Positions 1,314-18,948 of a DNA stretch of 21,073 nucleotides are shown piece by piece; the stretch's first letter is position 1, and each line of letters opens with the position of its first letter. The notes beneath the pieces were generated by a model. That model did no database searches. It was not told the origin of the DNA and saw only the letters and a program-made list of their open reading frames with translations. Source of the stretch: a virus. Made by a program: the position numbers and the translations under genes. The DNA lies in the IMG/VR virus record IMGVR_UViG_3300030098_006882, positions 1 to 21,073 of that record. One strand, 5' to 3'.

Positions 1314-1931
1314 ATGAAAAACATAATAATTTTATTTTTTATCCTGTTCGCAGGTTGTGTAGACCGTCCTTACGATGAAGCTTACTTTATTGGTGAAGGC
1401 GAGGATGTTATTGAACCCGAAGAGGATATCACTGAACCAGAAGAAGAGATTGAAGAGGACGTTATAGAAGACACATACGAGCCTGAAGAGGATGTCGTAG
1501 AAGATGTTATTGAACCAGAAGAAGATATTGAACGGGACACTGCTTGGGATTTTGATGCTGTAGAAGAGGATATTGTTTCAGTTGACGCAGATGATGAGGA
1601 TACTTGGATTGACACTTTTATTCCAGAGGACACTTGGCAACCAGAAGACACATACGTTCCACAAGATACTTGGACACCCCCGCAGGACACTTGGACGCCA
1701 CCACAAGACACCTATGTTCCACCCAAGGACACATATCAGCCTCCACAGGACACCAACAAACCAGAGGATACAAAGCCGCAATTAGGACCGGGAGAGTGTC
1801 CAAAGGATTGTAAAACTTGGTATGATGGTTGTAACACCTGTCAATGCAATGATGGTAAGATTGGCGGTTGCACTAAGATGTTCTGTCCAACTCCGAAACA
1901 ACCTTACTGCAAGAAGTTGCACGGAACTTAG
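1314..1931 (+). CDS. acidic DT-repeat lipoprotein with pacifastin-like cysteine motif
   Basis: A 205-residue protein with a lipoprotein signal: hydrophobic start and lipobox LFAGC, so Cys15 would be lipidated. Residues about 25-90 are almost entirely Glu/Asp with Val, Ile and Pro (repeats such as EPEEDI). Residues about 100-150 are tandem units of the type P-Q-D-T-W/Y-x-P. A cysteine-rich end (about 160-200) reads CNTCQCNDGKIGGCTKMFC, which fits the pacifastin pattern C-N-x-C-x-C-x2-G-x4-C-T-x3-C, with another Cys 10 residues before CN. Pacifastins inhibit serine proteases in arthropods; similar cysteine patterns also occur in bacterial lipoproteins. Asp-Thr-Pro repeat lipoproteins are common in Myxococcota/Bradymonadota. 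GGTGAG 8 bases upstream sets the start. Inhibitor function is inference. Confidence 0.85.
   Translation: MKNIIILFFILFAGCVDRPYDEAYFIGEGEDVIEPEEDITEPEEEIEEDVIEDTYEPEEDVVEDVIEPEEDIERDTAWDFDAVEEDIVSVDADDEDTWIDTFIPEDTWQPEDTYVPQDTWTPPQDTWTPPQDTYVPPKDTYQPPQDTNKPEDTKPQLGPGECPKDCKTWYDGCNTCQCNDGKIGGCTKMFCPTPKQPYCKKLHGT
1615..1780 (+). repeat. imperfect tandem repeats encoding P-Q-D-T-W/Y-x-P units
   Basis: Within the lipoprotein gene the DNA repeats in units of about 18-21 bases built around gacacttgg/gacacatat and ccaccacaag. The clearest are two near-identical units around 1665-1710 (both encoding PQDTWTP). The repeat probably expands and contracts by slippage and encodes an extended spacer that holds the cysteine-rich end away from the membrane. 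Confidence 0.7.
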
Positions 1932-3221: not shown

Positions 3222-3575
3222 ATGAAAGTACGTTTTATTATTAAAGAGCAAGAAGTCCCACCACCAGATTCCGTAAAAACAGATGCACAATTAGTGTCTT
3301 CTATACAAAACATGTTGCTTAATTTAGAGGGTGCTCAACTAGCTGCTTTAGAACAATATGCCATGGCGCTTAATAGCGCATCTTTAGAAGAAAAAAAGAA
3401 AAAAATGACAAAATCTGATGTCAAAAAGCGTGAAAAAATTGTTAAAGGTATGAAAGGCTCAAAAAAAGACTTTGAAAAGCGCTATGGTGAAGATGCAGAA
3501 GATGTAATGTATGCCACTGCCACCAAAATGGCAATGAATGCCACCAAAATGGCAATGAAAAAGAAGAAAAAATGA
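3222..3575 (+). CDS. small phage protein with RYG...MYATATKMA signature, probable virion protein
   Basis: A 117-residue protein. It begins MKVRFIIKEQEVPPP, then a helical segment at about 20-60, a Lys-rich stretch (EEKKKKMTKSDVKKREK), and the sequence FEKRYGEDAEDVMYATATKMA near the end (84-104). The pattern F-x-x-R-Y-G ... V-M-Y-A-T-A-T-K is one I know as a recurrent tail motif in proteins of marine T4-like phages; its function is unknown to me. The I-K-E-Q near the start resembles a prohead-protease site, so the product may be packaged and cleaved. GAGG with 7-base spacing precedes the ATG. The stop overlaps the next start (ATGA), so it is coupled to the kinase-like gene. The C-terminal heptad ATKMAMN/K is duplicated by a 21-base tandem repeat. 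Confidence 0.85.
   Translation: MKVRFIIKEQEVPPPDSVKTDAQLVSSIQNMLLNLEGAQLAALEQYAMALNSASLEEKKKKMTKSDVKKREKIVKGMKGSKKDFEKRYGEDAEDVMYATATKMAMNATKMAMKKKKK
3518..3559 (+). repeat. perfect 21-base tandem duplication
   Basis: Two identical 21-base copies lie head to tail at 3518-3538 and 3539-3559 (each starting TGCCACCAAAATGG). They encode two successive A-T-K-M-A-M heptads at the C-terminus of the signature protein. The perfect identity suggests a recent slippage event. Confidence 0.85.
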
Positions 3576-4516
3576 AATTAATCCTTGAAAATTGGCGAAA
3601 ATTTGTTAATGAACAGGACGATGCAACTGTTCCAGCCAAACCAGACGCTAAAAAAGCATTTCACGATGCTGAAACAACTAAGTTGGGTCAGAAAAAACAA
3701 GATGACCCACAAAAATTAGAGCCTATTGAGCTTAATACAACGATTCAAAAAGAAAACGCAAACAAAATTTTTCTATATTACTTGGATGAAAAGAACGTCA
3801 GAGATATTTTTCAGTTAAGCTCACTTCCAAAGGACGGTCAATTTAATAAAATGTTTGAAGAACCTGCTAAGGTCAAAAGATTTATTGATCATATGGTTGC
3901 TGCAAATGATATTTTAGGCAAAAATAAGATTGTAGAATTTTTAGGAGCAGGTTCATTTGGTTTTGTTGTGTTGTTAGACAACAATCACGCTCTTAAGATT
4001 TACAGTGGGTCGTTTGATCCGCTTGCAACTGACGATGTAATTGATCCAGATGCTAAAACTGACAGAGAAAGATACCAAAAATCTCAAGAAAAGGCGTTTG
4101 GTGGCAAGGGTGATGTTGCCGACTTGCACATTTATGACGAGGGTGAGCTAAAATTACCCACTGATCGCACTTGGTACTATGCTGAAATGCCTGAATTAAT
4201 AAAATTAAGTTCACATATGCGCTTTGTACACAAAGATAAGGATATGGTTAAGGTTACAACCGACTTAGATATGGAAATTACTAAATTAAAATACATTGCT
4301 AAGGATGATGTTGACAATAAAACTGAAAGTGACATTGATACTGTCGTACAAGACCAAAAAATCGTGCTTATGGATAAGAAATTTGCAAAAAATCTATTAG
4401 ATCAGTTGAGAAATATGCTAAAAACAAAAAGTTTTGAGCAAATTGAGGATGTTAGAGGGGCAAATATTGGGATTATGCGAGGAAAAGAGGACATCCCAGT
4501 GATTTTTGACTACTAA
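3572..4516 (+). CDS. protein-kinase-like protein with capsid-targeting-like N-terminus
   Basis: A 314-residue protein with kinase landmarks in order. They are a glycine-rich loop GAGSFGFVV at 125-133, the ATP-anchoring lysine in ALK (Lys142), and a hinge-like YYAEMPEL at 202-209. Next comes a catalytic-loop match DVRGAN at 293-298, where D293 and N298 have the D-x4-N spacing of kinases. Last is FDY at 312-314, in the place of DFG, with Asp313 as the Mg ligand. The chain ends immediately after that, so activation segment and most of the C-lobe are absent. About 150 residues between Lys142 and the catalytic loop include an unusual charged insert (about 150-190). The N-terminus MKLILENWRKFVNEQ resembles T4 capsid-targeting sequences, so it may be a packaged internal protein. 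It is coupled by ATGA to the gene before it. Kinase activity is unproven. Confidence 0.85.
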   Translation: MKLILENWRKFVNEQDDATVPAKPDAKKAFHDAETTKLGQKKQDDPQKLEPIELNTTIQKENANKIFLYYLDEKNVRDIFQLSSLPKDGQFNKMFEEPAKVKRFIDHMVAANDILGKNKIVEFLGAGSFGFVVLLDNNHALKIYSGSFDPLATDDVIDPDAKTDRERYQKSQEKAFGGKGDVADLHIYDEGELKLPTDRTWYYAEMPELIKLSSHMRFVHKDKDMVKVTTDLDMEITKLKYIAKDDVDNKTESDIDTVVQDQKIVLMDKKFAKNLLDQLRNMLKTKSFEQIEDVRGANIGIMRGKEDIPVIFDY

Positions 4517-5303: not shown

Positions 5304-6008
5304 ATGAAAAAAATTATTTTGTTACTGATTTTTTCAACATTAAATAGTTGTATGATTAGCTCAAGACACAAGAAAAATGTCTTTTTTAAAGGCACTTTTC
5401 TAAAAATTGAGAAAAAAATAAGTTTAACTGCTTGCCACCCCTTAAAACCAAGTCAGTGTATGACGAAAAATTTTGAATCAAGTGCATCTTCGTTTCTTAT
5501 TATGCACCACAAAAAGAAATCTTATCTAATGACTGCTGCTCACGTCTGTCATAATGACTATGGAAAGCTGGTTTACTTTCCCGGTTTTAAAGCACAGCAA
5601 GAATTCTATGGTCTAACCTTAAAAATGAAAAAACATTACTACAAAATTGAGGCAATGGACTTTGAATCTGATTTATGCATTGTTTCTACAGATAGGTTTG
5701 AAGGTATACCATACAAAATAGCTAAAAAACTACCAGAAATAGGAGAGCAAGTATACAATATTGCTGCGCCAGCGGGCATCTTTGAAGAAAATTTAGTTCC
5801 CTTGTTCAAAGGAATGTATTCTGGCGGTGCGCACGATAGAAAAGTTTACACTCTACCCGCAACTGGAGGTTCATCTGGATCACCAGTATTAAACCACAAA
5901 GGTCAGGTTGTTGGTGTGGTGAGTGCGGTAACAAAAAATTTTAAAAATATTGTAATTTCACCAACTTTAAAACAAATTAAAAATATCATTAAAACTATAA
6001 ATAAATAA
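5304..6008 (+). CDS. trypsin-like serine protease lipoprotein
   Basis: A 234-residue protein. The start is a lipoprotein signal with lipobox LNSC (Cys16). The chymotrypsin-fold triad can be traced: His80 in LMTAAHVC, Asp123 in ESDLCIV, and Ser191 in GGSSGSPV, followed by GQVVGVVSAV typical of the last strands. Length suits a minimal trypsin-fold domain tethered to the membrane by its lipid. In a phage such a protease could act in the periplasm or at the cell surface of the infected host, in processing or exclusion of other phages; the substrate is unknown. No Shine-Dalgarno precedes the ATG; a TATAAT abuts it, so the start could be leaderless or the real promoter lies further up. A late-promoter octamer for the next gene overlaps its end. 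Confidence 0.9.
   Translation: MKKIILLLIFSTLNSCMISSRHKKNVFFKGTFLKIEKKISLTACHPLKPSQCMTKNFESSASSFLIMHHKKKSYLMTAAHVCHNDYGKLVYFPGFKAQQEFYGLTLKMKKHYYKIEAMDFESDLCIVSTDRFEGIPYKIAKKLPEIGEQVYNIAAPAGIFEENLVPLFKGMYSGGAHDRKVYTLPATGGSSGSPVLNHKGQVVGVVSAVTKNFKNIVISPTLKQIKNIIKTINK
5996..6003 (+). promoter_or_regulatory. T4-type late promoter octamer TATAAATA
   Basis: An exact plus-strand TATAAATA lies 30 bases before the ATG of the Nudix gene and overlaps the last codons of the serine-protease gene. Transcription would start near 6009. It could drive the Nudix gene and the coupled NTase-peptidase gene behind it. Confidence 0.5.
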
Positions 6009-6032: not shown

Positions 6033-6473
6033 ATGAATCCAGTGAAAGAAATTAAGCATAAAGACGATAATCCAAATCAGTCATCAATGGCAGTTTTATT
6101 AGATCCAAAAGACCGCATTCTAATATTAAAACGTCCTGCCGATTTGAAGTCTGACAGCTTTCCAAACAAGTGGTGTATACCGGGAGGCAAAGCTCTTGTT
6201 GGAGAAACACCACTTAACAATGTTATACGAGAAGTTTTAGAGGAAACCGGGATTGAACTTAAACCCGGTTCAACAAACTATTTATTAAATAAGCAAGAAG
6301 GGGACAAAAACTATTTCTTTTTTATGGCTCGTGTAAATCAGGAACCAAAGATGATGAACGTGCTGGATGAACACGAAGAGTTTAAGTGGATCAGAGCAGA
6401 TGAAATTGAAAAGTATGATATGATCAAAGATACACACGACATAATCAAGCTGGCTCTACGGAAAGGATTATAA
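6033..6473 (+). CDS. Nudix hydrolase
   Basis: A 146-residue single-domain Nudix protein. The Nudix box is complete at residues 52-74: G52-x5-E58-x7-R66-E67-V-L-E70-E71-T-G73-I, which supplies the Mg-binding helix. It starts from a strand SSMAVLLDPKDRILILKR and ends with a DEHEEFKWIRADEI segment typical of the family. Nudix enzymes hydrolyse nucleoside diphosphates linked to another moiety, such as oxidised nucleotides, NAD(H), ADP-ribose or RNA caps; the substrate cannot be told from sequence. Its stop overlaps the ATG of the next gene by one base, coupling it to a nucleotidyltransferase-peptidase fusion. That neighbour makes a link to a nucleotidylated substrate conceivable. Confidence 0.93.
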   Translation: MNPVKEIKHKDDNPNQSSMAVLLDPKDRILILKRPADLKSDSFPNKWCIPGGKALVGETPLNNVIREVLEETGIELKPGSTNYLLNKQEGDKNYFFFMARVNQEPKMMNVLDEHEEFKWIRADEIEKYDMIKDTHDIIKLALRKGL

Positions 6474-8548
6474 TGAAACTAACCATTGCAAAAGACGAAC
6501 TACAATTTGGACACAAGCAAACTCTTAACAAAGATTTTTGGAAAGATGAGAAGCTTGATACAGAGGTACGTTTGGCGATAATGGCGATTGTTAAAAATTT
6601 CCTGAAAACAACAAATTTAGAAATGACTGCTGATGAAATCGATGAAATTGAATTCACAGGCAGTTTAGCAAATTACAACTATAGCAAATACAGCGATGTT
6701 GATATTCATTTGTTGTTTGATTTTTCAAAAATTGGTGATGATCCTGAATTTATGAGAGATTATCTCACAACCAAAGCAATCAACTGGAACAATAGACATA
6801 ATGTTACTATTTTTGGACATGAGGTTGAATTATATATCACAGATGCTGGTTCTGATCACCACTCAACTGGTGTTTACAGTGTAAAAGATGATAAGTGGCT
6901 TGTTAAACCTGTTCGCGATACTAAATTATCCGCCGAACTTAATCTTAACAAGGTTAAAGATAAAGCTGACAAGATTTCTAAAGAGATAGATATGTTGGTT
7001 TCTGTAGAGGGTGACCTATCTTTAGAAACAATTGAAGGCTTAAAAAATAAAATCAAAAAGATGCGAGTTGCTGGACTTGAAACTGGTGGTGAGTTCTCTA
7101 TTGAAAACTTGGCTTTTAAGCTGCTTAGAAGGCGCGGAGAGCTAAGTACTCTCTATGCCCTTATGAACCAAGCGCAGGACGCAGAACTCTCGTTAGACGA
7201 GGATGTGGAGTGGTGGAAAAAGCGCCGCAAGTTGGACAATAAAAACTATCTTGAGCTTATAGGGCATGTTCGCGGAGCGAAAAAAAATAAGAGTGGCACT
7301 CCATATATATTAGAACCTCACAAAAAATTGCCGATGAGTGCCCCTCCCGGCGTTGCAGAATCTATTTTAAAAGAATACACAGATGAAGAAGAAGAAAAGT
7401 TTGAACAAATTAAACAAAAAATAGATGGCGGTGCGACTTTTGAGTTAGACTTAAAGTCTCGTTCTTTTGGACAATTTAAATGTTTAACACAGCACACATA
7501 TGAAGTCAAAAAAGAAGGGCAAAATTATAGATTTAAATTAAAATCTAACATAGAAGATGTTCTAACACCAATAGCTAAAAAATTAAAAGATGTGGGTCGC
7601 ATCGATCCAAATTCACGGTGTGTTTATCATAATGGAGACAAACTTTTAAATTTAGATAATTTGAAACAAATTATATTATCTGAGTTACAGCAAAGAAATG
7701 TTCTTGGTGAGTTTGGTATAGTAGGCAAGCCAGTACCACCTCAGATAGAGCCATCTCCCATGCCTCCAATACCTCTCGAACCAAAAGAAACCCCAAAAGA
7801 ACCCAGCTTGGAGCCAGAAGACTCTAAAGTTGATGACGTTGAAGTCCAAGATGATAAAGAAAAAATTGTTAAAATACAAGTTGCCCCAGTAAGAACAATT
7901 ACTGTTAAGTGCGATAAAAATTCATTAGCAAAACTTAAAGGTGGAAATACTCCTAAATCAATTGCATATATTGTTTGCAAACAGGGTCTTGATTATTCAA
8001 TAAATAAGAAAAGAAAGTCACGAAGGAATGTAACAATTGATCAAGATTGGAAAACAAAAAATTTAATAAGAGTTAAGTTGGGCGACAAAACTGTTCGTTT
8101 CAATAAACAGTTTGCAAAAAAACTTCAAGATGCCTATCAAGAGGCAATAACTGAATCTGGACTTGAAGACTTTGGTTTTAAGCCAGTAGCTTATACCGCA
8201 AGAAGAATTGGATCAAAACCAACCGACCCTCTTTCCACACACGCCCTTGGAATTGGTATTGATTTTTATGTTCCAGCCAAAACATTCTCAAACAAGTTGG
8301 CTTATTGGAAAGAAACACAGTTTGCAATGGGAATGGGAAATAGAGATTATGACGACATCGCAAAAGAAAATAAACTTGAAGTTACGGAAGAAATGAAGGA
8401 AAAAATTCTAAACTTTAGAGAAAAATATAAGAAGTTTGTTGCTGCTATGAAAAGAAATGGATTTAGAGCAGGTGCTGATTTTACAAGAGATAGTAAGTTT
8501 GGTGACCCATCACACTTTGAGGTTAGTATTGAAAAACTATTAAACTAG
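6473..8548 (+). CDS. nucleotidyltransferase fused to M15-type peptidoglycan peptidase
   Basis: A 691-residue multidomain protein. Residues about 1-240 form a Pol-beta-like nucleotidyltransferase: GS at 63-64, then SDVDIH with D75 and D77, and a third acidic residue at E117/E119 (HEVELY). Residues 320-415 are a mixed region of unknown fold. A Pro/Glu-rich linker spans about 419-455. Residues about 555-691 are a LAS-type zinc peptidase: S-x-H-x2-G-x-G-x-D at 588-597 (zinc ligands H590, D597), and DPSHFE near the end (D678, H681). This matches M15/VanY D,D- or L,D-carboxypeptidases and phage endopeptidases that cut cell-wall peptides. A packaged, tail-borne wall-degrading enzyme is a good fit; the purpose of the NTase head is unknown. 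AAAGGA at 5-6 bases upstream supports the start. Confidence 0.9.
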   Translation: MKLTIAKDELQFGHKQTLNKDFWKDEKLDTEVRLAIMAIVKNFLKTTNLEMTADEIDEIEFTGSLANYNYSKYSDVDIHLLFDFSKIGDDPEFMRDYLTTKAINWNNRHNVTIFGHEVELYITDAGSDHHSTGVYSVKDDKWLVKPVRDTKLSAELNLNKVKDKADKISKEIDMLVSVEGDLSLETIEGLKNKIKKMRVAGLETGGEFSIENLAFKLLRRRGELSTLYALMNQAQDAELSLDEDVEWWKKRRKLDNKNYLELIGHVRGAKKNKSGTPYILEPHKKLPMSAPPGVAESILKEYTDEEEEKFEQIKQKIDGGATFELDLKSRSFGQFKCLTQHTYEVKKEGQNYRFKLKSNIEDVLTPIAKKLKDVGRIDPNSRCVYHNGDKLLNLDNLKQIILSELQQRNVLGEFGIVGKPVPPQIEPSPMPPIPLEPKETPKEPSLEPEDSKVDDVEVQDDKEKIVKIQVAPVRTITVKCDKNSLAKLKGGNTPKSIAYIVCKQGLDYSINKKRKSRRNVTIDQDWKTKNLIRVKLGDKTVRFNKQFAKKLQDAYQEAITESGLEDFGFKPVAYTARRIGSKPTDPLSTHALGIGIDFYVPAKTFSNKLAYWKETQFAMGMGNRDYDDIAKENKLEVTEEMKEKILNFREKYKKFVAAMKRNGFRAGADFTRDSKFGDPSHFEVSIEKLLN

Positions 8549-12381: not shown

Positions 12382-13532
12382 GTGCAGCCGCTAAATATGG
12401 TTCAGATAATATAAGTTTATGGACACCATCAGCCACTGGAAGTAATTCCTTAAGTTCCGACATTGTTGCTTGGATTGATTGTGAAGATACTGATGAAATG
12501 ACCACTGTAGTGGATGATGGACATAGTTATGTCACAATCATAAAAGACAAAGTTAATGATATTAGTTTTGGTGCCCCGAATGGCTACCAACGTCCAAGAT
12601 TTTCTAATGCTACAGATTCTTTATTAATTAACAACAGAAATACTTTACATTTCTGGGAAGCCAGCTTACAACACACGCCAGACACAGCATTGACTGCTTC
12701 TGAAGATGCGTTTGATGGTCACTTGGCAGAATTGAATGACCCCAGATATGCGTTTTTCGTTTATAAACCAATAGACTATTATGGTGACGCCAACCTACTT
12801 TACCAATATGGCGATAGTGCCCATGACAGGGCTTATGGTTTAGCCATGTGGGTCACCGGATCAGGGACTCTCACAAACACTAGTCATTATTATTATATGG
12901 CATCTTACGGCACCGGTAAGAGATATTACCCAGATGAAGATGATACGAATAGCAAGTATTACAATAAGGGTGGTGTAACCAATCTTGTTTACCACCAACA
13001 TTCTGGTACTAGCGGATATCTAAGTCACGATGGTAATCAGACTACGGCGAGTTATTCTTCAACGACTTTAATTACAAATAACTTTGATCGGGATATGCAA
13101 TTTTGGATTGGTGAAGAAATTGGTGGTGGTGGACGCGGCATAGAGTTCCTCTTAGCTGAAATGATTATGATTACTGGTAGTGGGCTCTCTGACGCAGACC
13201 GTCAAAGAGTTGAGGGATATTTAGCCCATAAGTGGGGATTAACTGGAGATTTAGCCGGTGATCATCCTTATAAAAGCAGCGCACCAACAAATGGATTAAG
13301 TGCTGGTGGCGATGGACCAGTTTTCGGAAATGATATTGGTAGAAAATATTCAATTGAACCCGGCAATGGCGCACGCGGTGGACCCGTTCTTAAAAGATTT
13401 GAAAACATAAATTGCAATTATGGTAAGAAAGATGGTATTGAACAAGTTCCTTTTGCATTGCAGCAACCGGGACCGTTCTCTTTAAAAAGACGAGCAACTG
13501 CTTACCAAGTCACACGCGGAGATAAAAAATGA
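12378..13532 (+). CDS. LamG/concanavalin-like phage structural protein
   Basis: A 384-residue protein rich in Tyr, Gly, Ser, Thr and Asn, like an exposed beta-structure. It opens with LSSDIVAWIDCED and ends its lectin-like domain with DRQRVEGYLAHKWGL (275-288), then DHPYKSSAP. That last pattern (E-G-Y-L-A-H-K-W-G-L ... H-P-Y) is a common end of LamG-like jelly-roll domains in marine phage tail or capsid-decoration proteins. About 90 further residues (IEPGNGARGGPVLKRF ... QPGPFSLKRR) have no match I know. A host-surface or virion-decoration role is likely. It is coupled by ATGA overlaps both to the metallopeptidase protein before and to the triple NTase protein after. Confidence 0.88.
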   Translation: MSAAAKYGSDNISLWTPSATGSNSLSSDIVAWIDCEDTDEMTTVVDDGHSYVTIIKDKVNDISFGAPNGYQRPRFSNATDSLLINNRNTLHFWEASLQHTPDTALTASEDAFDGHLAELNDPRYAFFVYKPIDYYGDANLLYQYGDSAHDRAYGLAMWVTGSGTLTNTSHYYYMASYGTGKRYYPDEDDTNSKYYNKGGVTNLVYHQHSGTSGYLSHDGNQTTASYSSTTLITNNFDRDMQFWIGEEIGGGGRGIEFLLAEMIMITGSGLSDADRQRVEGYLAHKWGLTGDLAGDHPYKSSAPTNGLSAGGDGPVFGNDIGRKYSIEPGNGARGGPVLKRFENINCNYGKKDGIEQVPFALQQPGPFSLKRRATAYQVTRGDKK

Positions 13533-16500
13533 GCAAACTCTTAAATGAAGGCGGCAATATTTTCAAAGGTGATGAAGGTGGATCAGAAACTATTCGTATT
13601 AAGCGCGATGACGTTGATCCTACGCTAAAGTGGCTGGAGGAAGAAGTTTTAAATTTTGATGATGATAAAAAACTTAATCTTGTTAATCATAAATTGGGAA
13701 CAACAGGTGAAAAAGAAACATCTGGTGATTTGGACATCGCCATTGATGAGAAAAAAGTCTCAAAAGATGAATTAATAAATAAGTTGGTAATATGGTTAGA
13801 AAAAAACCATCCAGACTACAATTATCGTGATTGGATTCATAAAACAGGTGTATCAGTTCACTTCAAAACCCCAATTAAGACAAAAGAGGGGGGCGATGAA
13901 TTTAATGGTTATGTTCAGACAGACCTTATGTTCGGCAATCCAGATTTCATGCTTTGGGCAGTCAAAGGTGAGATGGGACCAAGCGAGTATCGTGGTGGTG
14001 ACAGACAGAACTTGATCAATGCCATTGCAACGCAGCGTGGGTATGCTTGGAGCGCCTTCTTTGGTTTAAAGGATAGAGAGACCGGGGAAAGAACAAACGA
14101 CCCTCAGACAGTCGTAGATCGCGTTTTAGGGACAGGTCACAAACCAGAAGATTTTGATAGTATTTATACCCTGTTTGATATTCTTGCTGATAAAGAAAAA
14201 TATCCTGACGATGTTTATGAGGCAATTCGTGAAAAGGCAGGTTTTGATTTCCCTCATCGTGATAAAGAAGATAAATCATTAGACGAAGCAAAAAAGGATA
14301 GTCCTCGTATTCAACACGCTGAAGATTTAATTTTCTTTGAGGGTAGTGAAGGCGCTATTCGTGCTCTTGACGCTCTTGAGAAGATGAATAATCCAGAAGG
14401 TCGTCCAGAGACAACCTTAAAGTGGGACGGCTCACCAGCGATTTATTTTGGTCGTGATAAAGAAGGCAATTTTATTTTTACAGACAAAGGTGGTTTTGTA
14501 GCAAAGGGCGATAAAGGCAGAGCTAATTCAAAAGAAGAAATTGATGCAATGTATCGCGCTCGTTCAGGACGCGCAGCAAAAAAATCTGATATGACTTCTG
14601 AAGAAATATACCAACAAAAATATTCAAAAATTTCTCCTATGATGCAAAAAGCATTTGAGTTAGTAGAAAAGTCACTTGACTCTACACATAGAGGATACTT
14701 CTTTGGTGAGGTTCTTTACTTTGACAAACCAGCAGTTGAGGACGGCAAGTTTGTTTTCAAGCCAAATATGGTAAAGTATAAAGTTGCAACCGATTCAGAA
14801 ATGGGTAAAAAGATTGCAAAATCTGATGTAGGTATTGTTGTGCATTCTGAAAAAGATGTTAATGAGAAACCAATTCTTGGTAAACTTAACCTTAAACCTC
14901 TGTCATCACCAGACCCACGCGTTATTTTCTTTGGTAAGACATTTATTGAGAAACCAGTTAGTGTTGATGATACAGAGGTTGCTGAAATAAAACAGATCGT
15001 TTCTGCAAATTCTCAAGCAATTGATGGATTCTTCAACGCTGAAAAATTACGCAAGTTTAAAATTTCTGATTTACCAAACTTATTCTATGGATACTTAAAC
15101 AGTAAAGTTGACACAGGCTTAGAAAGCTTGGGTGAAGACTTTAATGATTGGCTTGTCAGCAAAGGCAGTGTCTCAGATGGCAAAAAACTAAACGTAAAGA
15201 ATTACATTTCTGAAAATCTGGAAACATACACCTTGGTTTGGGATGTTGTCACCAGAATAATGCAGATTAAAGACGACATTATTAGAAGCATTGACACTCA
15301 AGGAGGCTTGCCGTTTAGTCAATCCCTCGGCGGTGAAGAAGTTGGTGAGGGTTATGTTCTATCTGACGATGGCAAATTAATCAAATTGGTTGATAGATCC
15401 AAATTTACAAGAGCAAATCGTGCCGCCGTAAGAGAGCAAAATGAACTTGATCCTGATTATGAAGATGATTTAGAAGCTCAAATTGCTGACATTGAAGACG
15501 TTGAAACACACGTCTTTATTCCCGGCGGCTTTAAACCTCCTCATAAGGGACATCTTTCACTACTTCTTCAAGCAATTCAGAAGTACCCTGATGCGATTGT
15601 TCATATTACAAGTGGTCCAACAAAGCGTGCAGCAGGTGATTTAGAAATTAGTGCTGAACAAGCAAAGCAAGTTTGGGAAAAATACATTGAAAAATATGGC
15701 ATTAATAATGAAGTAAAACTTGATTATTTTGATCGTTTTAAGACGAATAGAAAGAAAGAAGATGGTTCTGTAATAACTTCATCAAGTCCATTCTTAAGAA
15801 TTGGTCTTAGAATGGAAAATGATATTGAAAACATTAACCCAAATTCAAAGATTGTTGCTGTCTCTTCAGAAGATGAGCATATTAATTTTGTAAAGAATGC
15901 AGCAACTTATTTAAATAATAAGAAAAAAAATCCAAAGAATTTCACTTTTGAACCATTAAAAGCAGAAAAAATTGAAGTTGAACCCGGTGTTAAATTTTCT
16001 GCTACTCAAATGAGAAAGGCGATTAGCGAAGGCGACTTTGATACATTTAAGGCTTTTATGCCAGAAAAACTTTCTGATGATGAAACAAAAGAAATATTTG
16101 AAATGCTTGGGGGCGTTATGGGTGAAGCATCCGTCGCTGCAAATGTTGCGGGCTACCCACTCCCTTTTACTTCGGGTAAAAAGAGGTGCGAACAAACTAT
16201 TTATAAGGAACAATTACGTCAAGTAATAAGACATCTTGTTAATAAAGAGAGAAACAATATGCTAAATGAAGAAAAACAATTAAGAGAACTTATCCGACAA
16301 ATCATTAAGGAACAGGATACGCCAACAAAATCAACTGGATTAAATAAATTAATTCAAGCGTTGAAAATTATTCTACCAACAGTAGAAAGTGGATATAAAT
16401 CTTTAACCACTGATAAAGAACAGAGAGACTCTTTCAAGCAACATTATCTCAAAGCTATTATTGACACTCTTTCTCCACAGGATGCAATCAGAGCGGCGTC

Positions 16501-17032
16501 TGGTGGTGAATCTGTTGGTATGCTTGGTGGCTCTGCCCTTGAAGAACAGGATCAAATTGAAGTAACTGTAACTGATGAGGAAACACCAGAAGCTGATCTC
16601 AGTGCTGAAATTGAAGATGAGGAGCTTGGTGACGATGCTCAAATCACAAAAGATGCTGGTGTTACACTCAAAGATATTGAAGGTAAGAAAACTGATATTC
16701 CAATCCCACAAATTCCCGGTTTAGATGAGACTGGTAGAGATGAATCAGTAGATGTCTACAAAAAGACTGTTGATGCAGTAACAAGAAACTACAGAACTCT
16801 ACATAACGAAAGCGATAGAAAAGAATTTAAAGAGTATCTTGTAACAAATCTTTTACTATACTTTGATAAATTTGAAAATGATATTGCCCCTGAATTAGAA
16901 CCTGTTACTACACCTGAGTATGAAAAACAAACAGCAGATAAAGCTCAGTTTACTGCTAAAGGTGAAGAGACAGTATCTGAAGAAATAAAGAAAGCAGTAA
17001 AAGAGACTTTAAAAAATAGTCTATTTCAATGA
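13529..17032 (+). CDS. three-domain nucleotidyl-transfer protein (Pol-beta-like, ligase-like, HxGH-type)
   Basis: A 1167-residue protein with three different nucleotidyl-transfer modules. Residues about 30-245 are a Pol-beta-type domain (SGDLDIAI with D67 and D69, third acidic D132 in QTDLMFG). Residues about 255-600 look like the covalent ligase/capping class: KWDG at 298-301 with Lys298 as the predicted nucleotide-accepting lysine, and FFGEVLY at 391-397 like motif III. I believe this module exists alone in cyanophages as an uncharacterised family. Residues about 660-845 are an HxGH nucleotidylyltransferase (PPHKGH at 670-675, SATQMRKAI at 824-832), as in NMN or PPCDC-type cytidylyl/adenylyltransferases. 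From about 865 on the chain is acidic and helical, with two LRxxIRxx(I/L)xxKE motifs at 896-907 and 918-928. A nucleic-acid or cofactor repair role, or virion packaging, is inference. Confidence 0.88.
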   Translation: MSKLLNEGGNIFKGDEGGSETIRIKRDDVDPTLKWLEEEVLNFDDDKKLNLVNHKLGTTGEKETSGDLDIAIDEKKVSKDELINKLVIWLEKNHPDYNYRDWIHKTGVSVHFKTPIKTKEGGDEFNGYVQTDLMFGNPDFMLWAVKGEMGPSEYRGGDRQNLINAIATQRGYAWSAFFGLKDRETGERTNDPQTVVDRVLGTGHKPEDFDSIYTLFDILADKEKYPDDVYEAIREKAGFDFPHRDKEDKSLDEAKKDSPRIQHAEDLIFFEGSEGAIRALDALEKMNNPEGRPETTLKWDGSPAIYFGRDKEGNFIFTDKGGFVAKGDKGRANSKEEIDAMYRARSGRAAKKSDMTSEEIYQQKYSKISPMMQKAFELVEKSLDSTHRGYFFGEVLYFDKPAVEDGKFVFKPNMVKYKVATDSEMGKKIAKSDVGIVVHSEKDVNEKPILGKLNLKPLSSPDPRVIFFGKTFIEKPVSVDDTEVAEIKQIVSANSQAIDGFFNAEKLRKFKISDLPNLFYGYLNSKVDTGLESLGEDFNDWLVSKGSVSDGKKLNVKNYISENLETYTLVWDVVTRIMQIKDDIIRSIDTQGGLPFSQSLGGEEVGEGYVLSDDGKLIKLVDRSKFTRANRAAVREQNELDPDYEDDLEAQIADIEDVETHVFIPGGFKPPHKGHLSLLLQAIQKYPDAIVHITSGPTKRAAGDLEISAEQAKQVWEKYIEKYGINNEVKLDYFDRFKTNRKKEDGSVITSSSPFLRIGLRMENDIENINPNSKIVAVSSEDEHINFVKNAATYLNNKKKNPKNFTFEPLKAEKIEVEPGVKFSATQMRKAISEGDFDTFKAFMPEKLSDDETKEIFEMLGGVMGEASVAANVAGYPLPFTSGKKRCEQTIYKEQLRQVIRHLVNKERNNMLNEEKQLRELIRQIIKEQDTPTKSTGLNKLIQALKIILPTVESGYKSLTTDKEQRDSFKQHYLKAIIDTLSPQDAIRAASGGESVGMLGGSALEEQDQIEVTVTDEETPEADLSAEIEDEELGDDAQITKDAGVTLKDIEGKKTDIPIPQIPGLDETGRDESVDVYKKTVDAVTRNYRTLHNESDRKEFKEYLVTNLLLYFDKFENDIAPELEPVTTPEYEKQTADKAQFTAKGEETVSEEIKKAVKETLKNSLFQ
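16259..17032 (+). other. possible internal start giving a 257-residue C-terminal product
   Basis: Inside the triple NTase gene, an in-frame ATG at 16259 follows AGAGAG about 7 bases upstream and opens the segment MLNEEKQLRELIRQIIKEQ. Short N-terminal sequences of this kind (hydrophobic/basic helix ending in I-K-E-Q) are typical starts of separate virion-associated proteins in related phages. The last 257 residues may therefore be a formerly separate gene fused in frame, or still be made separately from this site. The sequence cannot decide between them. Confidence 0.35.
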
Positions 17033-17720: not shown

Positions 17721-17948
17721 ATGGAGGCAAATCCATTATTTGGACGACCGTGGAAGATTGCAGGTCGTTTTGAAACTTTTGAGGGTGCGGATAGAAAAAG
17801 AAAGCAGCTTTCCTCAGAAAAAAATTTACAAGTTAAAGTTAAAAAGCAGTTGAAGGGTTATGTGGTAAAAACCAGATCAACTAACACTGAAGAACCAAAG
17901 CGGCTTAGTCGCAAGAAGCAACGCAAGGAGAAGATGAATGATCGCTGA
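17721..17948 (+). CDS. small conserved basic phage protein, function unknown
   Basis: A 75-residue protein: PWKIAGRFETFEGADRKRKQL, then VKVKKQLKGYVVKTRS and a basic tail (KRLSRKKQRKEK). The core W-K-I-x-G-x-F-x-T-F-x-x-A-D-x-K-R, followed by V-K-V-K-x-x-x-x-x-x-V-K-T-R, is a pattern I recall from small proteins of marine T4-like phages. The alpha-beta arrangement and basic tail suggest nucleic-acid binding, which is inference. A consensus Shine-Dalgarno precedes it. Its last codons overlap the start of the PurA-like gene by 11 bases. Confidence 0.75.
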   Translation: MEANPLFGRPWKIAGRFETFEGADRKRKQLSSEKNLQVKVKKQLKGYVVKTRSTNTEEPKRLSRKKQRKEKMNDR

Positions 17949-18948
17949 TGTCGTTGTTGGACTTCAATATGGTGATGAGGGTAAAGGAAAAGTAACTCAC
18001 CACCTATGTAAGACAGGAGGGTATACTCATGTCCTACGCTACAATGGTGGCTGCAATGCTGGTCATACTATTTTCCATGAGGGTCGTAAGTTTGTTACGC
18101 ATCACATCCCAGCAGGGGTCTTTTTTGGGATCAAAAGTATCATTGGCAATGGCTGTGTACTTGATCCTGTACAGTTTTTTAAAGAGTTAGATGAACTTAA
18201 GTCAGGTGGGATTGACACCACGGGACTTATTTATGTCGCTAAAAACTGTCATGTAATTACAGATGACCACAAAGAAGAAGATGGTAAAGATAAAAAGATT
18301 GGTACTACCAAGCGAGGCAATGGTCCTGCTTACAGAGATAAATATGCCAGAACAGGTATCATGGCTAAAGATGTTCCAGAGCTTAAGCCGTACTTGATTG
18401 ATCTACATGATGAGTTCTGGAATCAGTCTGATGTTAAAATCCTCTGTGAAGGCGCTCAAGGCTTTGGATTGGATATTGACTGGGGAGACTACCCTTACGT
18501 TACTTCAAGCCATTGTCTGACATCCTCGGTGCTTTTAAATGCCATTCCTCATTATGCCATCCGTGATGTCTGGGGAGTTGCCAAAGCTTATGAGACTTAT
18601 GTTGGTACAAAGCAGTTCCAACCACCACATAATAAAGTTTTTGCTCATATACAAGAAGCAGGACAGGAATTTGGCGCTACAACTGGAAGAGTTAGGCAGT
18701 GTAACTGGCTTAGTCTTCCATTTCTTAAGAAGTCAGTTCAACTGAACGCTGTGAACCGTGTTGTGATTAACAAGATGGATATTATGCGGCAGGTTAGTAA
18801 CTGGAGTCTTAGAAACAACGATGGTAAATCAGACTTCTTTGAATATTTTTCAACAGAAGAAGACTTTACTAACAGAATTGAAGAATTCTTGGCTGGCACT
18901 GGGAAGGATATGGATATTTTCTTTTCAGACAGCCCACACAAAATTTAG
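17938..18948 (+). CDS. short adenylosuccinate synthetase-like enzyme (PurA/PurZ family)
   Basis: A 336-residue enzyme of the family that joins aspartate to IMP (PurA) or to dGMP (phage PurZ) using GTP or a related nucleotide. Visible motifs: YGDEGKGK at 11-18 (catalytic Asp13), AGHT at 41-44 (catalytic His43), IGTTKRGNGPAY at 121-132, GATTGRVR at 256-263 (aspartate loop), and guanine-type NKMD at 288-291. E. coli PurA is about 430 residues; this length instead fits the short archaeal PurA and phage PurZ group. Known PurZ of phages S-2L and phiVC8 lack the catalytic Asp, whereas here Asp13 is kept, so it is either a true PurA or an intermediate PurZ0-like enzyme. AAGGAG with 7-base spacing selects the ATG at 17938 over an ATG 4 bases earlier, which lies in the preceding gene's frame. 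Confidence 0.92.
   Translation: MIADVVVGLQYGDEGKGKVTHHLCKTGGYTHVLRYNGGCNAGHTIFHEGRKFVTHHIPAGVFFGIKSIIGNGCVLDPVQFFKELDELKSGGIDTTGLIYVAKNCHVITDDHKEEDGKDKKIGTTKRGNGPAYRDKYARTGIMAKDVPELKPYLIDLHDEFWNQSDVKILCEGAQGFGLDIDWGDYPYVTSSHCLTSSVLLNAIPHYAIRDVWGVAKAYETYVGTKQFQPPHNKVFAHIQEAGQEFGATTGRVRQCNWLSLPFLKKSVQLNAVNRVVINKMDIMRQVSNWSLRNNDGKSDFFEYFSTEEDFTNRIEEFLAGTGKDMDIFFSDSPHKI

Follow-up and report, generated by a model that had tools for sequence, protein, structure and literature searches.

Bacteriophage T7 gp0.7 (T7PK, phrog_15752) carries a GxGxF motif, a lysine, a DxxxxN loop (DMHSGN at residues 195–200) and the metal aspartate D213, after which only about 29 residues follow, the kinase domain presumably ending near residue 242. 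There is no room for helices αF to αI, and gp0.7 acts on many host proteins. The purified N-terminal domain of T7PK phosphorylates RNase III as well as itself, and its autophosphorylation on serine is down-regulatory (PMC4858673). Similarly, the kinase domain of the gp0.7 homologue JSS1_004 phosphorylates defence proteins (PMC12345140). Standalone T7-type kinases end 21–22 residues past the aspartate, and the 188-residue 'kinase protein' of Stenotrophomonas phage DLP6 ends DIHSGNLMVRPGTDELVITDPLV-stop, three residues past it.

Kinases are normally described as requiring a C-lobe anchored on αF. The minimal effector kinases OspG, HopBF1 and SteC have a reduced C-lobe and are delivered into the host. 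SteC nevertheless keeps β9, αEF and αF, and its minimal C-lobe regions are essential for catalysis (PMC13395416).

In T4, the internal proteins IPI–IPIII and Alt are ejected as enzymes or inhibitors. They reach the head by a short N-terminal leader, of which the first 10 residues suffice and which gp21 removes by cutting after L/I-x-E (PMC9026906). None of this T4 cargo is a kinase. For four cyanophages, S-CRM01, S-TIM5, S-CBWM1 and S-CREM2, kinases have been reported as virion-associated, with the caveat from the authors of the virion list that co-purification was not excluded (PMC10665884).

Catalytic residues and the shared C-terminal end

The window analysed here, meaning the whole stretch of DNA under study, is 21,073 bases long and comes from a virus record of 23,666 bases. 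It encodes a 314-residue protein in which G125xGxFG130, K142, D293-x4-N298 and F312-D313-Y314 succeed one another in the order of a kinase fold (glycine-rich loop, β3 lysine, DxxxxN, DFG-type aspartate), directly followed by TAA (Table 1). An earlier note, made from the sequence alone, had described a kinase-like protein with these motifs, and the set of residues for ATP and metal is indeed complete. The note also placed FDY at DFG; the position is right, D313 being the DFG aspartate, but Y314 replaces the phenylalanine and the chain stops before the glycine. Pfam, NCBIfam, PHROG and PDB sequence searches with the protein gave no significant match, and this kinase, recognised by eye, is therefore unnamed in the profile libraries.

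Table 1. Coordinates of the kinase gene, its parts and the adjacent upstream gene in the window.
Feature	Position	Strand	Basis or remark
Upstream 117-residue ORF (MKVRFIIKE↓Q...)	3222..3575	+	may also bear a leader; not conserved as a partner
Kinase-fold ORF, 314 residues and TAA stop	3572..4516	+	ORF coordinates correct; homologues; dN/dS
Leader MKLILENWRKFVNE, residues 1–14	3572..3613	+	predicted capsid-targeting; predicted cut after E14
Linker, residues 15–60	3614..3751	+	poorly conserved (mean conservation 0.43); first part predicted disordered
Glycine-rich loop GAGSFG, residues 125–130	3944..3961	+	
ATP lysine K142	3995..3997	+	invariant; on strand β3 of the model
Predicted αC helix, residues 162–177, candidate Glu E173	4055..4102	+	model
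Hinge E205-M206-P-E	4184..4195	+	E205 and M206 invariant
Helical segment of variable length between hinge and catalytic loop, residues 213–285	4208..4426	+	helices in the model
Catalytic loop D293-VRGA-N298	4448..4465	+	D293 and N298 invariant
F312-D313-Y314 and stop; DFG aspartate penultimate	4505..4516	+	invariant in 9/9

Relatives were found on ten IMG/VR contigs, which together with the window, and less near-duplicates, yield nine distinct sequences (alignment A4) that range from 91% to 27% identity. Down to the lowest of these identities the core catalytic residues are unchanged, and G125, G127, F129, G130, K142, D293, N298, G300, F312, D313 and Y314 are invariant among all nine. The candidate αC glutamate E173 is kept in six of the nine at the aligned column and is shifted or an aspartate in the rest, and the histidine of HRD is missing, with isoleucine two residues before the catalytic aspartate. 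Between close members dN/dS is 0.08–0.10 (about 0.09), and the gene is under strong purifying selection. This constraint and the invariant core make it very improbable that the protein is a packaged structural or scaffold-binding protein with a dead kinase fold, a reading with which the head location suggested by its leader (see below) would agree.

The end of the protein is shared by the whole family: in each of the nine sequences FDY is followed by a stop codon, exactly one residue after the DFG aspartate. The alignment that the earlier note had proposed as a check thus bears out its claim that the protein ends at the DFG position, and homologues continuing past FDY, which would have spoken against it, were looked for among the nine members and not found. 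The same picture emerged when the end was left out of the search. A DNA pattern for approximately D-[LIVMF]-R-x-x-N-[LIVMF]-G-x(10)-[LIVMF]-F-D-[YF], with no stop required, matched nine IMG/VR contigs, all of them family members and all ending there; a profile search on the glycine-rich loop and hinge motifs, which ignored the C-terminus, returned the same ten contigs. Truncation through a sequencing or assembly error is ruled out, because nine distinct homologues with different stop codons (TAA in some, TGA in others) share the end. Read-through of the stop is likewise ruled out: downstream sequence, frames and genes differ between loci, and the next ORF in locus L001 lies in another frame. 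No cellular relatives were found in genome contigs with two motif patterns, a search that does not exclude distant ones. A tblastn match in Staphylococcus phage PB50 (E 0.4) was coiled-coil-like in appearance and was discarded as unrelated.

Predicted fold and the vacant C-lobe

An AlphaFold2 model computed on A4 reached a mean pLDDT of 73.6 and a pTM of 0.67. The per-residue pLDDT was below 50 for residues 1–45 and, from residue 160 onwards, mostly exceeded 80. Its N-lobe consists of β1 (119–123), β2 (130–134), β3 (139–144), αC (162–177), β4 (189–193) and β5 (201–207), and is followed by αD (212–219), helices spanning 225–285, the catalytic loop, β7 (299–302) and β8 (305–311), where the chain ends. 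The top Foldseek match was PknB (E 1.2e-4). VIA-align gave Z scores up to 8.9 against PKR, TTK and IRE1 (PKR: Z 8.9, 141 residues, rmsd 3.6), and its alignments ended at TTK 664, PKR 432, PknB 156, IRE1 711 and LCK 382, which we take to be the DFG aspartate of each kinase. Structure prediction of the protein alone, another check proposed in the earlier note, therefore supports a kinase fold as far as β8; by the model, the protein is protein-kinase-like over its ATP-binding half.

The activation segment and helices αF to αI are missing. The definition of eukaryotic protein kinases (EPK) requires an activation segment and the GHI helices, and even the eukaryote-like kinases (ELK) retain a C-lobe through αF (PMC3415842); the present chain ends one residue past the aspartate, outside the EPK definition, and with nothing after D313-Y314 it also lies outside the ELK class. 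The earlier note had recognised this absence and had read it as the loss of the parts that bind a protein substrate. The absence stands, but it does not exclude protein substrates, because T7 gp0.7, with the same anatomy, phosphorylates many host proteins.

In other respects T7 gp0.7 differs: it is expressed early and not packaged, has a D-x-H loop and a TDP motif, and carries a C-terminal basic shutoff domain that the window kinase lacks. A comparison of the family with the T7 kinase by hhalign gave a probability of 1.4%, which is not significant, and only the family member at L016 matches phrog_15752 (3.1e-5, over the N-lobe). From these comparisons, homology between the two families appears weak and is unproven. 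The DLP6 kinase, which resembles the window kinase in its end, has no leader and belongs to a different family. Taken together, a family that always terminates at DFG, T7 gp0.7 and the DLP6 kinase point to a recurrent phage design, and such a design would set the lower size limit of an active kinase core.

The segment between hinge and catalytic aspartate is unusually long. It spans 83–167 residues across the nine members against roughly 45 in typical kinases, and for this reason the helical insert could fill the space of the vacant C-lobe. A fuller version of this idea, which we hold tentatively and at less than even odds, is that the catalytic core needs nothing beyond the DFG aspartate, that the terminal D-Y-carboxylate edges the metal site, that the variable insert ahead of the catalytic loop replaces the C-lobe, and that a cleavable leader brings this pre-made protein kinase into the capsid, from which it is ejected into the host.

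The missing C-lobe also bears on what else the enzyme might do. Its loss would be irrelevant in a small-molecule or nucleotide-modifying kinase of the APH/ChoK type, packaged or not. However, the APH/ChoK substrate pocket is formed by helices after DFG, which are absent here, and structural comparison favours protein kinases, with PknB and TTK among the best matches. Such an activity is therefore unlikely, despite the catalytic loop without HRD, the NUDIX and cytidylyltransferase-domain proteins among the neighbours, and the virion APH/ChoK-like kinases reported in cyanophages (PMC10665884).

A self-modifying or AMPylating pseudokinase-like enzyme, with the terminal tyrosine or linker residues as acceptor, is less probable still. 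Y314 is invariant and adjoins the metal aspartate, and T7PK offers a precedent in its down-regulating serine autophosphorylation (PMC4858673), but the catalytic residues are the ordinary phosphotransfer set, and a tyrosine in the place of the DFG phenylalanine may be structural.

About equally doubtful is a fold that is inactive alone and completed either by dimerisation or in trans, by another protein of phage or host origin. With the conserved end, the αF position stays empty, and OspG is a minimal effector kinase switched on by a binding partner (PMC13395416); against this, the purified N-terminal domain of the T7 kinase is active (PMC4858673), and no neighbour that could complete the fold is conserved across the nine loci. 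The earlier note had named the adjacent 117-residue protein as a possible partner, and this was not borne out: a recognisable relative was found only at L003 (45% identity).

The N-terminal leader and the case for packaging

The strongest clue to the function of the window kinase is a feature that the earlier note did not mention, its leader. The sequence MKLILENWRKFVNE↓Q (here and below, the arrow marks a putative cut) looks like the capsid-targeting leaders of T4-type phages, including a site of the L/I-x-E kind for the prohead protease. A leader is present in all nine family members, with W8 invariant and an end of the FLxE type. Similar leaders occur on unrelated proteins at L007, L008, L064 and L066, and close variants of MKLLLENWRxFLxE begin four genes near the L007 kinase and several at L008. 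In the examined loci the pattern M-x(2-11)-W-x2-[FYH]-[LIVM]-x-E matched 26 protein starts, including some duplicate contigs or double starts, against 0.55 expected from shuffled ORFs.

Three family members lie on contigs over 100 kb (G002, G007 and G010, with genomes of 141, 160 and 173 kb). All three encode a gp21-type protease and a gp23-type capsid protein, and the LLRE↓A site is kept in the gp23 of G002 and G007, the two that were read. The window's own record, a 23,666-base fragment, contains no T4-type protease or capsid gene. Judging from its sequence, the leader probably loads the window kinase into the virus head for injection.

The link between such leaders and packaging was examined in S-CREM2, of which two regions were translated and compared with the published mass-spectrometry virion list. 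Four virion proteins start with a leader of this kind: the kinase (VKRFDAFLTE↓E), a SAM hydrolase (MKDFDSFLEE↓F), ORF13 (MKDLHSFLTE↓Q) and a cytidylyltransferase (MKNFSSFLTE↓A). Over the two regions, a leader ending in [FY][LIVM]xE begins 4 of 13 detected proteins versus 1 of 44 undetected ORFs (Fisher p = 0.008). The S-CRM01 kinase begins MISFDQFLSE↓K. S-CREM2 ORF14 and S-CRM01 g130 are thus, like the window kinase, kinases of T4-type phages with an N-terminal leader (FLTE↓E or FLSE↓K), and theirs are virion-reported. Unlike the window kinase, both exceed 750 residues and continue for about 175–190 residues past a DLG motif. A profile of A4 found no match in S-CRM01 or S-TIM5. The virion-detected Cas9-like protein of S-CREM2 (locus L078, OR473000, 7704–10313) has FMAE↓A at about residues 22–25, a possible capsid-targeting site.

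Since the T7 gp0.7 anatomy works on proteins, we propose, with a probability of roughly 0.55, that T4-type phages package the window kinase in their virions and inject it, and that it is a minimal protein kinase working in the manner of T7 gp0.7. Residues 1–14 would carry it into the prohead as a capsid-targeting leader, and a gp21-type protease would cut after E14. The mature kinase would then be ejected into the host together with the DNA, as the minimal effector kinases are delivered into theirs, and would phosphorylate host proteins or defence proteins ahead of all phage gene expression. Its ATP site would be built from the N-lobe, αD/αE together with the helical insert of variable length, the catalytic loop and the terminal D-Y-COOH, with neither activation segment nor αF to αI, as in T7 gp0.7.

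Several observations count against this proposal: the missing HRD histidine, the partly conserved αC glutamate, the weak homology to the T7 kinase, a window leader that ends V-N-E rather than in a strict L/I-x-E, and the untruncated virion kinases of S-CREM2 and S-CRM01. If packaged, the kinase would be at work before transcription of the phage begins, and host takeover or counter-defence could start no earlier; its sequence features give the impression of a host-takeover enzyme that is pared down and ready-made. The DFG-terminal end and kinase packaging are each known elsewhere; the combination and the invariant terminal tyrosine are new. The leader also provides a testable loading signal for virion-associated phage kinases.

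Neighbouring genes and a second kinase family

The window contains possible protease sites of another type as well (FIIKE↓Q, IIVE and an internal LIRQIIKE↓Q), in the genes at 3222–3575, 2284–2907 and 13529–17032. They suggest that there may be more packaged proteins, including the DUF6267/cytidylyltransferase protein.

A second leader-tagged kinase family was found at L007 (6001–7026), L063, L064 and L066, and matches Pfam Pkinase (2.4e-5) over the N-lobe. Its members have a canonical DxHSGN loop and end 6–9 residues past the DLG aspartate. Unrelated leader-tagged genes stand in tandem beside the second-family kinase, and the contig that carries L064, 195 kb long, also encodes gp21 and gp23. 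An AlphaFold model of the L007 kinase family reached a pLDDT of only 45.7 and was left out of the analysis.

Six of the nine loci have a trypsin-like peptidase gene (window 5304–6008; also in the neighbourhoods of L005, L010 and L016) no more than a few kb from the kinase, and its orientation varies. The genes at window 6473–8548, L001:8902–12486 and L003:8890–12639 encode proteins of 691, 1194 and 1249 residues whose N-terminal ~316 residues are over 70% identical; their C-terminal parts differ, with an M15-type peptidase in the window, a pattern of modular exchange. Window 17938–18948 encodes a phage adenylosuccinate synthetase (PF00709, 4e-83) in which the aspartate of GDEGKGK is kept, which we take to mark it as PurA-like and not PurZ-like. 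The products of window 1314–1931 and L001:2439–4511 resemble lipoproteins and contain many D/T/P repeats, and one of them has a pacifastin-like cysteine motif; the style is reminiscent of Myxococcota/Bradymonadales, which may be a clue to the host.
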